NCBI GenBank assembly: GCA_009746045.1
Contig: RPFO01000744.1
Coordinates: forward strand, 1,091,135 to 1,155,134
DNA length: 64,000 bases
Direction: 5' to 3'
Source of the DNA: Mesostigma viride
Lineage: Eukaryota > Streptophyta > Mesostigmatophyceae > Mesostigmatales > Mesostigmataceae
In this document: positions 3,219-22,100 of the stretch, piece after piece
Position numbering within the stretch: position 1 is the stretch's first letter
Layout of the letters: the number at the start of each line of letters is the position of its first letter
Notes under the pieces: model-generated
Told to the model about the DNA's origin: nothing
What the model saw: the letters and a program-made list of their open reading frames with translations, nothing else
Database searches by the model: none
Translations under genes and position numbers: made by a program

Positions 3219-3328
3219 ACCCACCAGTTGGCCAACGAGAATAGTACGATAGGGGTTAAGCAGCTCGACCCATTAAAGAGAGAAAATGAACCCACCACTT
3301 GTCCGACGACGTAACCGTCGTCCCAAAT
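3219..3328 (-). repeat. Decayed copies of the exon 14 donor region
   Basis: Positions 3290-3328 (plus strand CCCACCACTTGTCCGACGAC...) and, more weakly, 3219-3250 resemble the end of exon 14 and its 5' splice site at 4031-4070. A third, much closer copy lies at 3911-3950. Confidence 0.6.
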
Positions 3329-3373
3329 GGAAATAACAGATGGCAATAGCAGGTCATTGTAGAGCACCTAAGC

Positions 3374-16100: not shown

Positions 16101-19100
16101 GCCCCCGCAGGCCCAGCAGCACCTCCAGCGGCTCCTCTTCCACCGGCTCGTCGCCCTCATGCTCGCCGTTCAGGGGTGGGCCTAGCAGCGGCCCCTGGCA
16201 CAGAGAGAGAGAGAGAGAGAGAGAGAGAGAGAGAGAGAGAGAGAGAGAGAGAGAGAGAGAGAGAGAGAGAGAGAGAGAGAGAGAGAGAGAGAGAGAGAGA
16301 GAGAGTGGGTGGGTGGGCGGGCGGGGCGAAGCAACGCCGGCGCAGATGCAGAGACGCCGCAGTCGTACGGTGACCATGGTATCCATGAGATAGCCAGCAC
16401 AGGCATGGCATTACTGTATACTATAGTGACCATGGTATCCATGAGATAGCCAGCACAGGCATGGCATTACTGTATACTATAGTGACCATGGTATCCATGA
16501 GATAGCCAGCACAGGCATGGCATTACTGTATACTATAGTGACCATGGTATCCATGAGATAGCCAGCACAGGCATGGCATTACTTTATACTATAGTGACCA
16601 TGGTATCCATGAGATAGCCAGCACAGGCATGGCATTACTGTATACTATAGTGACCATGGTATCCATGAGATAGCCAGCACAGGCATGGCATTACTGTATA
16701 CTATAGTGACCATGGTATCCATGAGATAGCCAGCACAGGCATGGCATTACTGTATACTATAGTGACCATGGTATCCATGAGATAGCCAGCACAGGCATGG
16801 CATTACTGTATACTATAGTGACCATGGTATCCATGAGATAGCCAGCACAGGCATGGCATTACTGTATACTATAGTGACCATGGTATCCATGAGATAGCCA
16901 TCACAGACTTCAAATTTCAAAGATTTGCACCATATGCATCTGACCAAGCCCGCCTTTCCTACTTAAGGTAGCCAGATCCTGTATCGGCATGACCAAATTG
17001 TCAAAACCACACAGCCACCCGGCCACCCGACCACCCGGCCACCCGGCCACCCGGCCACCCTGCCACCCTGCCACCCTGCCACCCTGCCACCCGACCACGC
17101 GACCACGCGACCACGCGACCACGCGACCACGCGACCACGCGACCACGCGACCACGCGACCGCCCGACCGCCCGACCGCCCGACCGCCCGACCGCCCGACC
17201 GCCCGACCGCCCGACCGCCCGACCGCCCGACCGCCCGACCGCCCGACCCCCCGACCCCCGACCCCCGCACCCCCGCACCCCCGCACCCCCGCACCACCCC
17301 CGCACCCCCACCCCCACCCCAACCAACCACACACACTCACACACAGGGGGGGGGGGGGCATGGGGGAGAGGGGGGGGGGGAGAGAGAGAAAGAGAGAGAG
17401 AGAGAGAGAGAGAGAGAGAGAGAGAGAGAGAGAGAGAGAGAGAGAGAGAGAGAGAGAGAGAGAGAGAGAGAGAGAGAGAGAGAGAGAGAGAGAGAGAGAG
17501 AGACCCTCACACACAAAAAGAATAGCCACTCACATGGCCCCCTGCGTTCAGCAGCCCAAACAGCTGCCCATCATTCCCATGGTCCCTGCCGTCCGCCACC
17601 TCGGCCACCGCCACTGCTGCTGCCGCCAGCGCAACCTCCGCATTCTCCTCATGAGCCAGCGCGCCCTCAATCTCCTGAGGGTCACCTGCAGGCTGATTCC
17701 CCGCGATCACCTGGCCCGCCAGCCCAGCCCCGAGCCCATGATCTCTGGCTGCAGCGGGATGCCCGCCGGCGTTATTGTTGGCCTGGTGCCCGCCCCTTCC
17801 CCCGCGCCGGGCAGCGGCTGGGTCGTCTGATGGGGGGGGGGGGGAGGTGAAGGCATTACCAAATTTGAATGACAGGGACGATCATAGGGACAACAAAGAG
17901 GCATGATGGTTGAGCTTTGAAGATCATTACTTCTATTAAATGATAAGGACAGCGGCCACAGAGAGAAATGATGGTTGAGCTTTTAAAGGGCACTATTTCA
18001 CTAAAAAGTCAATTAGGGACAACGGCCACAGAGAGAATAGAGACCAGTTCAGATAAAGATTTTAGAGTAACCGGACGTTCGCTGATTCGCGGGTGGGTGG
18101 ATGGGATGGGGGGGGGGGGCAGTCGGGCAGGTGCACCATAATTTTTTGGTGAAAAACATCAGTTTACGGCTCTCAAAAATGTTCAACCGATGGCAAGTGG
18201 AGTGCATGTCCAGTATATCAGTCAATAACCCAACAACGTGAAGAGCAGGTGCATCCACTACATTGCATCGCAAGGCTAGCAGCCACTCCTCTGTGTGGTA
18301 TGCCTTCCCACTTGAAGATATGAAAACCTGGCTCACTGAATGCGCAGATGAGTCCACCCCACACACACACCTCGCTGGATGCATGTACTGGTTTACCCTA
18401 TGCAAGGCTTCACGAGCCAACACACTTTCCCGTTGGTCGCATCCCCATGGCATGAATACATGAAAATACATACCTCGTTGCATGTCCGCATGAGCCGCCT
18501 TCCCCTGCCGCCCAAACACGCACATGTGCGCGCGTGCCCGCGCCTCATGCACACACACACACACACACACACACAAATTCCCCTTTTGAAGATACACAAA
18601 ACACATACCTCGCTGGATGCGGCAGCGCCAGCTCCCCCAATACACACACACACACACAACCCCACACACATACTCCGCTTTTGTGGATACACGCACACTT
18701 GTGTAGAAACACACACCTCGCTGGATGCGGAAGCGGCGGCCACCCACGACCACCACGGGCTCGTCATGGGCGACCGGCGCGGGGTGGCGGTTGCGCATGT
18801 GCTGGTTCTGCTGGCAGACCGACACCAGAGACCCCAGGGAAAGAGGGACCCGCATGTGCAGGCAGGGCAAGGAACGGGACCACATGCGTTAGACGTGGTG
18901 GCACATGACAATACATGGAGGAAACGGGGGGAGTCGACCTGAAGGCAGCGAACAATACCTGAAGGAAGCATACAAACACGTGGTGCCTCCGGTATTGGGA
19001 AAAAAAGAGTTCTGCTTCAGTGAATGACGTGCATAAGCAACATGGAGATATTGTCTCTTTGGTTTGGGTTGTCTCTTTGATATGAGACCCAAAAACCTTT

Positions 19101-22100
19101 ATTGACAAACCTAAAGTATGCATTTAAAAGTCAGCGGGGTATATTCACCTATCCAATGGGCCTGAAGAGGATGCGAAGTTAGGTGGTCGGTTGTAGTCAG
19201 GCCCTGACTGCCACCAACCACCGAACAAAGCATCCTCAGTGCGCCTGAGATATCATCTGGGCAGCCTGGTTCTTTGCACCTCCTGTAGTTAACCAGTCAC
19301 TAAGATAACTTATCACGTTACATATGCAGCCCCTTGTCAACCACAACAAGGTCGGAAACCACCCCACTAAGGGGATGGCCTTGCAAAGCCGTAGCAAGTG
19401 GGCACATGGCGGTCACCATACGGGGCACCCGCGGCAATGGCCTTGCGAAGCCGTAGCGTACCCCGTTAATCCATTCTTCCCGCGACTTTGCTTGCTACCG
19501 AAAAAAAATTGCGGCTTGAAGACAACATGGGCTCGCTCTCATGCAATCGTTACAAGTGGCGAGGGGACAACTGCCCCACATCTAACAATCATGCCAGCAA
19601 CACGCACACGCCACATGTACTCGCGCGGAAATATCTCGCCCAATCCACGGGCTCCGCCCATCACGCGGCCACACGCAGTACCACACATCAAACCATCCAT
19701 GCAAACTACCCACCAGCCCCATGCAGCGCCACGATTGACAAGCCGTCATGCAGTACCACGCACCTGCCACATGTACTCGCGCAGGGAGATGGCCCCCACC
19801 AGCACGATGCCCATGCACGCGCACAGGAACGAGCCATACACGCAGTCGGTTGCCAGCAGGACAGGGGAAAAACGAAATACGGGGCCAGGGCCCATTGCCG
19901 GTGCACCAGCTGTGCCTGCGGGGCTAGGGGACGAGGGGGCCGCGACCGCCCCTGATCCAGACTCGGATGCGGAGGATCCGGTCAACCCTGATTCAGATGC
20001 CAATAAACGAGACGACCCTGCTGTCAATGATGCTGGCGACCCTGAACGCTTCGCCAGGGATGGCCCCCTCGTCATGGAAGACCCCCTTGCCGGCATTGAG
20101 GAGCCCCCGGGTAGCGACCCCGTTGCTGCATCACCCGCGTCCTTGTCGGGTACCTTCCGACCCGCATGAATGGATTCATGGTCACCAGAATCCGCCAGGG
20201 GCACCGAGCCATCGTCCTCCAACAGGCGTGACAACCCGTACTCCCCATCCCCGGTCAAGACCGCCCCCAGCCCAACATGCTCACTCCCCACATTATCTGT
20301 AGCTCCGCCGATACCATCCGCGGCACTGTGAGTAGCTACCGCCATCCCTGCCGACTCCCCCGTGTCCGTGTCCACTCTCCTCCCCGCCGATGAACCTGTC
20401 AGCCCCGTCGGGCCCCCCGGAACTCCTTGGAACGCCATGCCCCCGGCCCCAGGAACGCCCCCGCCCCCACCGCTGCCGGGTGGTAGCAAGGCACCGGCTG
20501 GGCCGCCAGGTGGCAGCGCCGCAACAAGCGACGTCGACCAGGTGATGTCGGCAAAGGAGCGCGTGAGCGCGAGGCGTGACATCCAGCAGGCGGACAGGGG
20601 GATGACCACGAGGCACAGGGTGGTGACAAGCGCCAGCCGGGCAGCAAACGCCAGCACGCGGCGGCCCCTCGACGCGAGACCCAGCACGAGGTCCCTCAGG
20701 GGGAGCACCGCAGGGGCATCCGGGGCGTACACGGGGGAGAAGGAGAAGGGGCACTTGCAGACCTGGTCCGGGGAGGAGAGGGGGGTGTTGAGGGTGGGCG
20801 GCGGCAGCCAGAGGACGAAAGGCAAGCAAAGAGTGGGTGTTGTGCTACAACTAGGCAAGGGGCGGCCCTATGGAAGCCCAGTGGAACACTATAGGGATAT
20901 ACATGGACCATGGGATGGGTAGGGGTGGGCGTTGCGATGGTTGTTCGTGGGCGACGGGATGGTTGTTGGTGGGCGATGGGATGGTTATTGGTGGGCAATG
21001 GAATGGCCAAATTAACTATGGTTTGGTAGGGGTAGGGGAAGGGGGGGGGATGTGCGGTTTGGAAGGTGACGGACGAAGGATGGGAGTGACGTGCGACAGC
21101 GCACCCTGTTTTGCGGTCGTTAACTGGTTATGGGACCTCCCAAGGGAAATGCACGTTTCCAATCCCGTAAAATTGGCAGCACACAGGGATGTGAAGCAAT
21201 CCAAGCGCTCCGTGTGCCCCCAACGGATCCACGCGAAACTGCTTCATTGATTCATGGCAACTGTTGCAAATGTCACGACGCGGTCCTTTTACATCGGATT
21301 GACGATGGCGATTGTGACAAGGGCTCCTGTGCTGACTGCCAACGGTCAGTAGCCACTCACGAATAACCGATAACAAGTAAACGAGGGGTAACAGTCAACA
21401 GATGAGATCGCGGGCTGAAGGCAGGTGCATGCGGGGCCACGGGCTCATAGAGGCTTTGAACTACGTGCAATATTCCCATTAAATTGAAAGGATTAGCCCA
21501 CAGTGGAAAAGTGAAGGGGGGAGGGAGGGGGGGGGGAAAGGACTTTGACTGGGAGGGAGCAGGGCAGATATAGATCATTTGGAAAGGGGGGGTAACCAGA
21601 GGCTTGGGTGCTGGACTGCTGGTAAAAGAGAATTTCTACAAACCTTACTGGGGAAAGGGGGAATTTCGCAAGCTTTTCACCACGCAGGAACCCGCCAACG
21701 CGAAATAAGTCCGTATCAGCTTACAAATTGCTAAGGCGAATCAAACTACTACTACTGTTGGGCAGACTCCTGTTGGCTCAACTGGTGCCAGCCATGTCGG
21801 TTACCAGTGCACCAGATAGCCAGGGTTCCATGCATCCAAGACACAAACTTTGAGCATGCCGAGGTTAAGATTAAAACATGTGATCTCGTGATGTCCACAT
21901 ACCGCATCAGCCATCCAAAGTCAATCGTGGTTTCAGTGTCTCGATTTTTTAATCAAGGCAGCAACAGGAAGATTGACGACTAAAACAGAACCCTCTATCC
22001 GATCTTTGCAATGCAGAAACTAGACACTGGGCTTAAATTTATGAGGAAATATACGCAGGAGTCGTCTCCTTGATACGCAGGAGGTGATTGGCATGAGCAT

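Follow-up and report, generated by a model that had tools for sequence, protein, structure and literature searches.

Copies of exon edges in the adjoining introns of a MARCHF6/Doa10-like gene of Mesostigma viride

In a stretch of 64,000 nucleotides of the streptophyte alga Mesostigma viride (contig RPFO01000744.1, positions 1,091,135 to 1,155,134; referred to here, at its full length, as the window), a MARCHF6/Doa10-like gene on the minus strand (2939..22472) carries in its introns short copies of the ends of the neighboring exons together with the adjacent splice sites. A strong direct copy in the edge's own intron was found for 7 of the 28 exon edges of the completed gene model (fixed scoring, score of at least 28). 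Six of the 14 donor edges (exons 2, 3, 5, 12, 13, and 14) and one of the 14 acceptor edges (exon 6) belong to this group. The edge copies occur in direct orientation and lie in the intron adjoining their source exon. Probably, local direct duplications across exon edges have lengthened the introns of this gene, and the intronic copies have since decayed neutrally.

Detection and catalogue of the edge copies

In the strict test, 38 exonic and 12 intronic bases of each edge were compared with the edge's own intron after masking of the listed simple repeats, and a score of 28 served as the cut-off. The control comparisons were performed on 27 edges, as exon 15 was not yet part of the model. At the seven strong edges the z values ranged from 8.9 to 28.8, and in each case the score was reached by none of 200 dinucleotide shuffles. 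No match at score 28 was obtained when edges were compared with non-adjacent introns (0/325), with the intron flanking the exon at its opposite end (0/26), or, in inverted form, with their own intron (0/27). At the same score, exon-interior windows matched in 3 of 562 cases and intron-interior windows matched their own intron in 146 of 863. Within the gene, 27 local pairs reaching a score of at least 28 were listed; every one of them was direct, and four involved the repetitive exon 8. Templated insertion in random orientation was rejected on the basis of these direct pairs and the absence of inverted edge matches. Chance similarity or low complexity might have been suspected, as simple repeats are abundant in the introns and the flank of exon 3 is CA-rich. 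However, the listed simple repeats had been masked, and the shuffles and the comparison with non-adjacent introns refute chance for the seven strong edges, leaving this explanation with a practically negligible probability. The claim of the first-pass annotation that the echoes are more than chance matches thus held against shuffled controls.

Individual copies, all of them on the minus strand, were listed by a laxer search, in which a copy was kept if its score exceeded the maximum obtained against non-adjacent introns on both strands. The donor edge of exon 2 (exon end at 19764) has a strong copy at 19589-19642 and possibly a second, weak one at 19698-19723 (score of 26 against a null maximum of 24). 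Three copies follow exon 3 (end at 18717): at 18599-18637 with the donor GTATGT retained, at 18464-18484, also with GTATGT, and at 18363-18382, identical at 20 of 20 positions and with GTGTGT. For exon 5 (end at 16069) four copies without any GT occupy 15823..15996, a region that in part forms a 38-bp tandem array; three of them (15967-15996, 15863-15902, and 15823-15855) lie above the cut-off of the laxer search, and the fourth was aligned at approximately 15899-15929, its coordinates being read by eye. The single copy of the exon 12 donor edge (8857-8922; exon end at 8989) lies 129 bp away and retains its GT. With a T-rich tract and an AG upstream of it (at approximately 8954), this copy has the appearance of a pseudo-exon (8860-8953). 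A mutually exclusive exon 12b was rejected, as judged by eye, because the copy runs into a stop when spliced from exon 11. Exon 13 (end at 5099) is followed by copies at 4862-4876, 4805-4829, and 4607-4624, all three with GT, and by a perfect tandem array of nine 11-bp units (4886..4985) whose unit, judged by eye, resembles the exon 13 donor. For exon 14 (end at 4038) the nearest copy includes intron flank and spans 3818..3951, the edge itself corresponding to 3913-3951; two older copies at 3290-3331 and 3215-3239 both carry GTGGGT, and a fourth match at 3871-3884 comprises intron flank alone, without a splice site.

At the acceptor edges, exon 6 (start at 15432) has two copies, at 15507-15552 and 15609-15655 (15513-15552 and 15610-15655 in the laxer search), both with CAG retained; in the first, the exon part is identical at 40 of 43 positions. 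A weaker copy of the exon 10 acceptor edge (start at 10925) at 11027-11071 has lost its AG. It scored 34 against a null maximum of 22 in the laxer search, whereas under the stricter scoring its z value was 2.2 and its score was reached by 9 of 200 shuffles. The acceptors of exon 11 (28 against 26) and exon 14 (24 against 22) were borderline in the laxer search, which by our estimate is about the chance yield of some 27 edges at such a cut-off. No copy of either edge of exon 4 was found in its own introns, even with the laxer search.

The first-pass annotation had listed donor copies at exons 2, 3 (three), 5 (four), 12 (one, 129 bp away), 13 (three or more), and 14 (one close, two decayed) and two acceptor copies at exon 6, all of which were recovered. 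Its exon 10 copy depends on the scoring used; of the two exons it had named as possible, exon 11 is borderline and exon 4 yielded nothing. The recurrence it had put at eight or more junctions amounts to seven strong ones, or eight with exon 10 under the laxer scoring. Its account of usable sites was accurate: GT is retained at exons 3, 12, and 14, and also at 2 and 13, AG at exon 6, and GT is lost in all four exon 5 copies. About 5% of the intron bases (655 of 12,052) belong to catalogued copies, which thus mark a process without accounting for the length of the introns. A possible age gradient with distance from the edge was seen for exons 5 and 6 and was not seen for exons 3 and 13.

Direction of copying and decay of the splice sites

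When 18 copies were aligned in frame to their exon, third codon positions were the most divergent (57 of 170 differed), against 25 of 169 at first and 23 of 171 at second positions (Fisher p 7.5e-7, in a count in which copies of the same edge are not independent). Such an excess at third positions is the pattern of a constrained exon compared with a freely decaying copy and gives the direction of copying as from exon to intron. The copies thus derive from translated exons.

GT was retained in 11 of the 15 tabulated donor copies, the weak second copy of exon 2 being left out. From the 14% divergence at first and second codon positions, neutral decay predicts a retained fraction of 0.74 (0.86 squared), and conservation of the splice motif beyond neutral decay was therefore not found. 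This bears on the alternative that selection maintains the copies as decoy or auxiliary splice sites, such as additional U1 binding sites which aid the true donor or regulate retention. In favor of such a role, 9 of 15 donor copies score inside the range of the 14 real donors, compared to 12.5% of 738 intronic GTs. However, donor-like scores are expected of any recent copy, the copies at exons 5 and 10 have lost the splice site, and the likeness spans tens of exon bases, well beyond the motif. Together with the neutral level of GT retention, this makes selected decoys improbable. Of the two readings offered by the first-pass annotation, intron growth fits local direct duplication, whereas the selected decoy role is left without support.

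Origin of the copies

We propose that the introns of this gene grow via short local duplications in the same orientation, either in tandem or with filler between the copies. Where the copied piece spans an exon edge, selection would hold the real exon and its splice site in place, and the other copy would remain in the intron as an echo and decay without detectable constraint. Duplications across a donor should be best tolerated, because the upstream donor tends to be used and the messenger RNA would remain unchanged. With a duplicated acceptor, splicing might frequently take the upstream site, which would add sequence to the messenger RNA. We infer both the use of the upstream donor and the molecular step, which may be slippage, unequal exchange, or the repair of staggered nicks. 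Lengthening of introns is seldom visible, because both copies of an intronic duplication drift and lose their likeness. An exon edge, as the master copy, changes slowly, so that each echo is a datable and oriented record of one duplication.

The complete unit of duplication is visible at exon 14, where the edge matches at 37 of 39 and the intron flank at 61 of 67 positions, with one 27-bp gap beside the donor. The first copy of this edge is clearly a tandem duplication. At exon 3 the flank match resumes after a 13-bp gap and was reached by none of 1000 shuffles with CA tracts masked. A whole tandem unit including intron flank is therefore seen in two of the eight families (exons 14 and 3). In the other six families the edge alone is recognizable, and the flank would either never have been copied or have been replaced by later events. 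Generally, the aligned blocks consist mostly of exon sequence and reach 3-18 bp into the intron. Local duplication also occurs away from the edges, as arrays within introns with units of 17-63 bp and as interior matches in introns 1, 2, 3, 7, and 10, among others.

Matches at the edges were nevertheless more frequent than at interior positions. In a test in which the match must span the site, matches were obtained for six of the 14 donors and one of the 13 acceptors, compared to 162 of 1700 interior windows (9.5%), or 84 of 1396 when the echo copies were left out; the first-pass claim of an excess over chance matches stands in this comparison as well. When random intron positions were drawn intron by intron, seven or more matched edges had a P of 0.0015 and six or more matched donors a P of 0.00005. 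With the interior cut-off lowered to 22, which offsets the faster decay of intron-intron pairs, the values were 0.0135 and 0.0006, respectively. The permutation mean was 1.1 to 1.5 matched donor edges against the 6 of 14 observed, an excess measured in one gene that was chosen for showing the pattern. The higher frequency at donors (6/14) than at acceptors (1/14) gave a Fisher p of 0.077, or 0.21 with exon 10 counted, and a donor bias is only suggestive. Should other genes show the same excess at donors, intron growth would start preferentially from splice junctions, or at least be tolerated best there, and genomes would acquire a store of ready-made cryptic donors.

Several results weigh against local duplication with neutral decay as the full explanation. 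A less strict search listed ten inverted pairs within the gene; one of them, the only one at an echoed edge, is a 16-nt match (88%) between intron 13 (4354-4369) and the end of exon 13 (5103-5118). In a likelihood fit of the codon-position counts, a 1.7-fold third-position rate, our own expectation for a neutral copy, fitted poorly (p 0.014, with copies that are not independent of each other). Ratios of 2.0 (p 0.09) and 2.5 (p 0.54) were accepted; we do not read the preference for a ratio of at least 2 as proof of constraint on the copies. A retest on the flanks alone revealed no significant homology for exon 2 (p 0.097), exon 5 (0.30 and 0.14), exon 6 (0.99 and 0.12), exon 10 (0.35), exon 12 (0.41), or exon 13 (0.75 to 0.90), and the first exon 6 copy shows none although its exon part is 40/43 identical. 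Furthermore, uniform neutral tandem duplication was simulated under constraint on the exons, with the interior rate matched (8.7-10.8%). Only one of the 900 runs produced seven or more matched edges (means of 1.5-1.9 among 27), and an intron side of 10 bp or less occurred in 14-17% of the simulated edge matches versus 6 of 7 observed ones. An exploratory run at a higher rate, with 17.4% interior matches compared to the observed 9.5%, reached seven edges in 4 of 40 cases. The simulated edge counts and intron-side extents indicate that the junction is somehow special, as far as can be judged from a gene picked for its pattern and from a simulation that depends on our choice of unit lengths and rates. 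The simplest form of local duplication thus leaves unexplained why blocks so frequently end at the junction and why donors are matched so frequently.

Alternatively, the splice junction itself would be a duplication hotspot, with breaks or nicks at or just inside the junction and a repair that copies the exon end and the splice motif into the intron. Copied blocks would then end at the junction and introns would grow preferentially from exon edges. The donor excess over the permutation mean, the mostly exonic blocks, and the lack of flank homology in six of eight families agree with such a hotspot. On the other hand, the data come from a single gene selected for its pattern, the duplication at exons 14 and 3 included the flank, and the slower change of exon edges favors the detection of their copies. 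We know of no mechanism for a duplication hotspot at splice junctions, which we also count against it, and we regard a hotspot as possible but rather doubtful. In a related scenario, which we hold to be unlikely, exon edges in this lineage would be undying master copies that keep seeding new copies, either because selection preserves the edge or because breaks favor the junction. Introns would then grow from splice sites, donors above all, and every event would leave a datable record.

Introners are repeated DNA linked to splice sites, and the copies might represent target-site duplications of such inserted intron-making elements. The spacers between copy and edge are indeed unrelated across edges, and most flanks are unshared. 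However, a comparison of 16 spacers among themselves and against the window revealed no family common to different edges, the only clear kinship lying within one edge. No terminal inverted repeats of the spacers were seen, the best match between 10-mer ends being 7 of 10. Nor do multiple copies per edge and aligned blocks of 15-66 bp resemble target-site duplications. Here, unlike in introners, neither a shared spacer family nor terminal inverted repeats were found within the window. An introner or transposon origin was therefore rejected within the window, and such an origin is very improbable overall. A model of intron birth in which the copy would sit at the opposite intron end was likewise rejected, as the distance between an edge and its best copy is 68 to 269 bp.

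Single instances of this kind are already known. Intron 7 of the human factor VII gene (F7) contains 37-bp repeats of which the first includes the used donor, and according to the passage on this intron splicing normally uses only the most upstream of the 5' splice sites (PMC6627357). By analogy, this preference may serve as a model for harmless donor duplication. The arrangement resembles ours in that there are several homologous repeats and the first of them carries the donor; as described there, it concerns one intron with 'highly homologous' repeats, whereas the present copies are partly decayed, recur at seven to eight edges, and include acceptors. In a potato gene for RNA-dependent RNA polymerase (RdRp), a tandem duplication across an intron-exon boundary duplicated the splicing signals (PMC4974935). 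By the account given, a new intron was created there, whereas the copies described here reside in existing introns. Break repair in rice yields insertions of 10-1000 bp which duplicate nearby DNA (Vaughn and Bennetzen 2014, as cited in the review PMC7407515). These insertions are likewise local, being tandem, partly tandem, or derived from within 200 bp of the break, and the review passage names no preference for splice junctions. The statement in the first-pass annotation that no description of the pattern is known must therefore be narrowed, given the potato and F7 cases. What would be new is the recurrence at seven to eight junctions of one gene, of which we recognized no account among the open-licence papers listed in our searches.

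Host gene and surroundings

The host gene comprises 15 exons with an open spliced frame of 2493 amino acids and 14 GT-AG introns, in agreement with its earlier designation as Doa10/MARCHF6-like. The first 14 exons were assembled by hand using splice sites and reading frame, with all introns GT-AG and the frame open across 2477 codons. Exon 15 (2989-2939), located via a motif search, encodes LHNFVEPAAPTMTQTG followed by a stop and makes the gene complete; the relative P0001 has LVGRKLHNF at this position. The N-terminal part of the product contains a RINGv domain (3.8e-18), a MARCHF6_C domain lies near the C-terminus in the large exon 13 (1.1e-26), and the middle of the protein matches yeast Doa10 chain 8pd0 among solved structures (2.8e-9). 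A search with the first 1471 residues yielded at least 113 homologues. The best named ones among the matches listed are from mosses, land plants, and Chara, and many of the 113 are fungal. Based on the domains, the homologues, and the structure match, the gene is predicted to encode a MARCHF6/Doa10 E3 ligase. Alignment of five relatives from the 113 with the 14-exon model showed agreement across its conserved blocks and supports the exon edges in these parts. Exons 3, 4, 7, and 8 have their edges in poorly conserved stretches, where they were placed by frame and splice signals alone.

Exon 13 of the predicted ligase contains 19 consecutive asparagine codons (7933-7991). In intron 4, 9.6 copies of a 56-bp unit at 99% identity occupy 16370-16906, flanked by long (AG)n tracts; this array has probably grown very recently. 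Intron 12 contains a (TGGG)n repeat of about 64 copies (8171-8428).

The window is eukaryotic and rich in retrotransposon DNA. A pair of Ty3/gypsy-like elements (34485-40820 and 42146-48484) is 99.7% identical, and a partial third copy (40821-42145) separates the two; the trio (34485-48484) is probably a recent tandem or nested insertion. Two pairs of direct repeats with more than 99% identity, one of 574 bp (32966-33536 and 58545-59118) and one of 474 bp (50754-51226 and 57926-58399), are possibly long terminal repeats. Arrays of an approximately 40-bp repeat are located at 30818-31423 and 59392-59567, the second inverted relative to the first.

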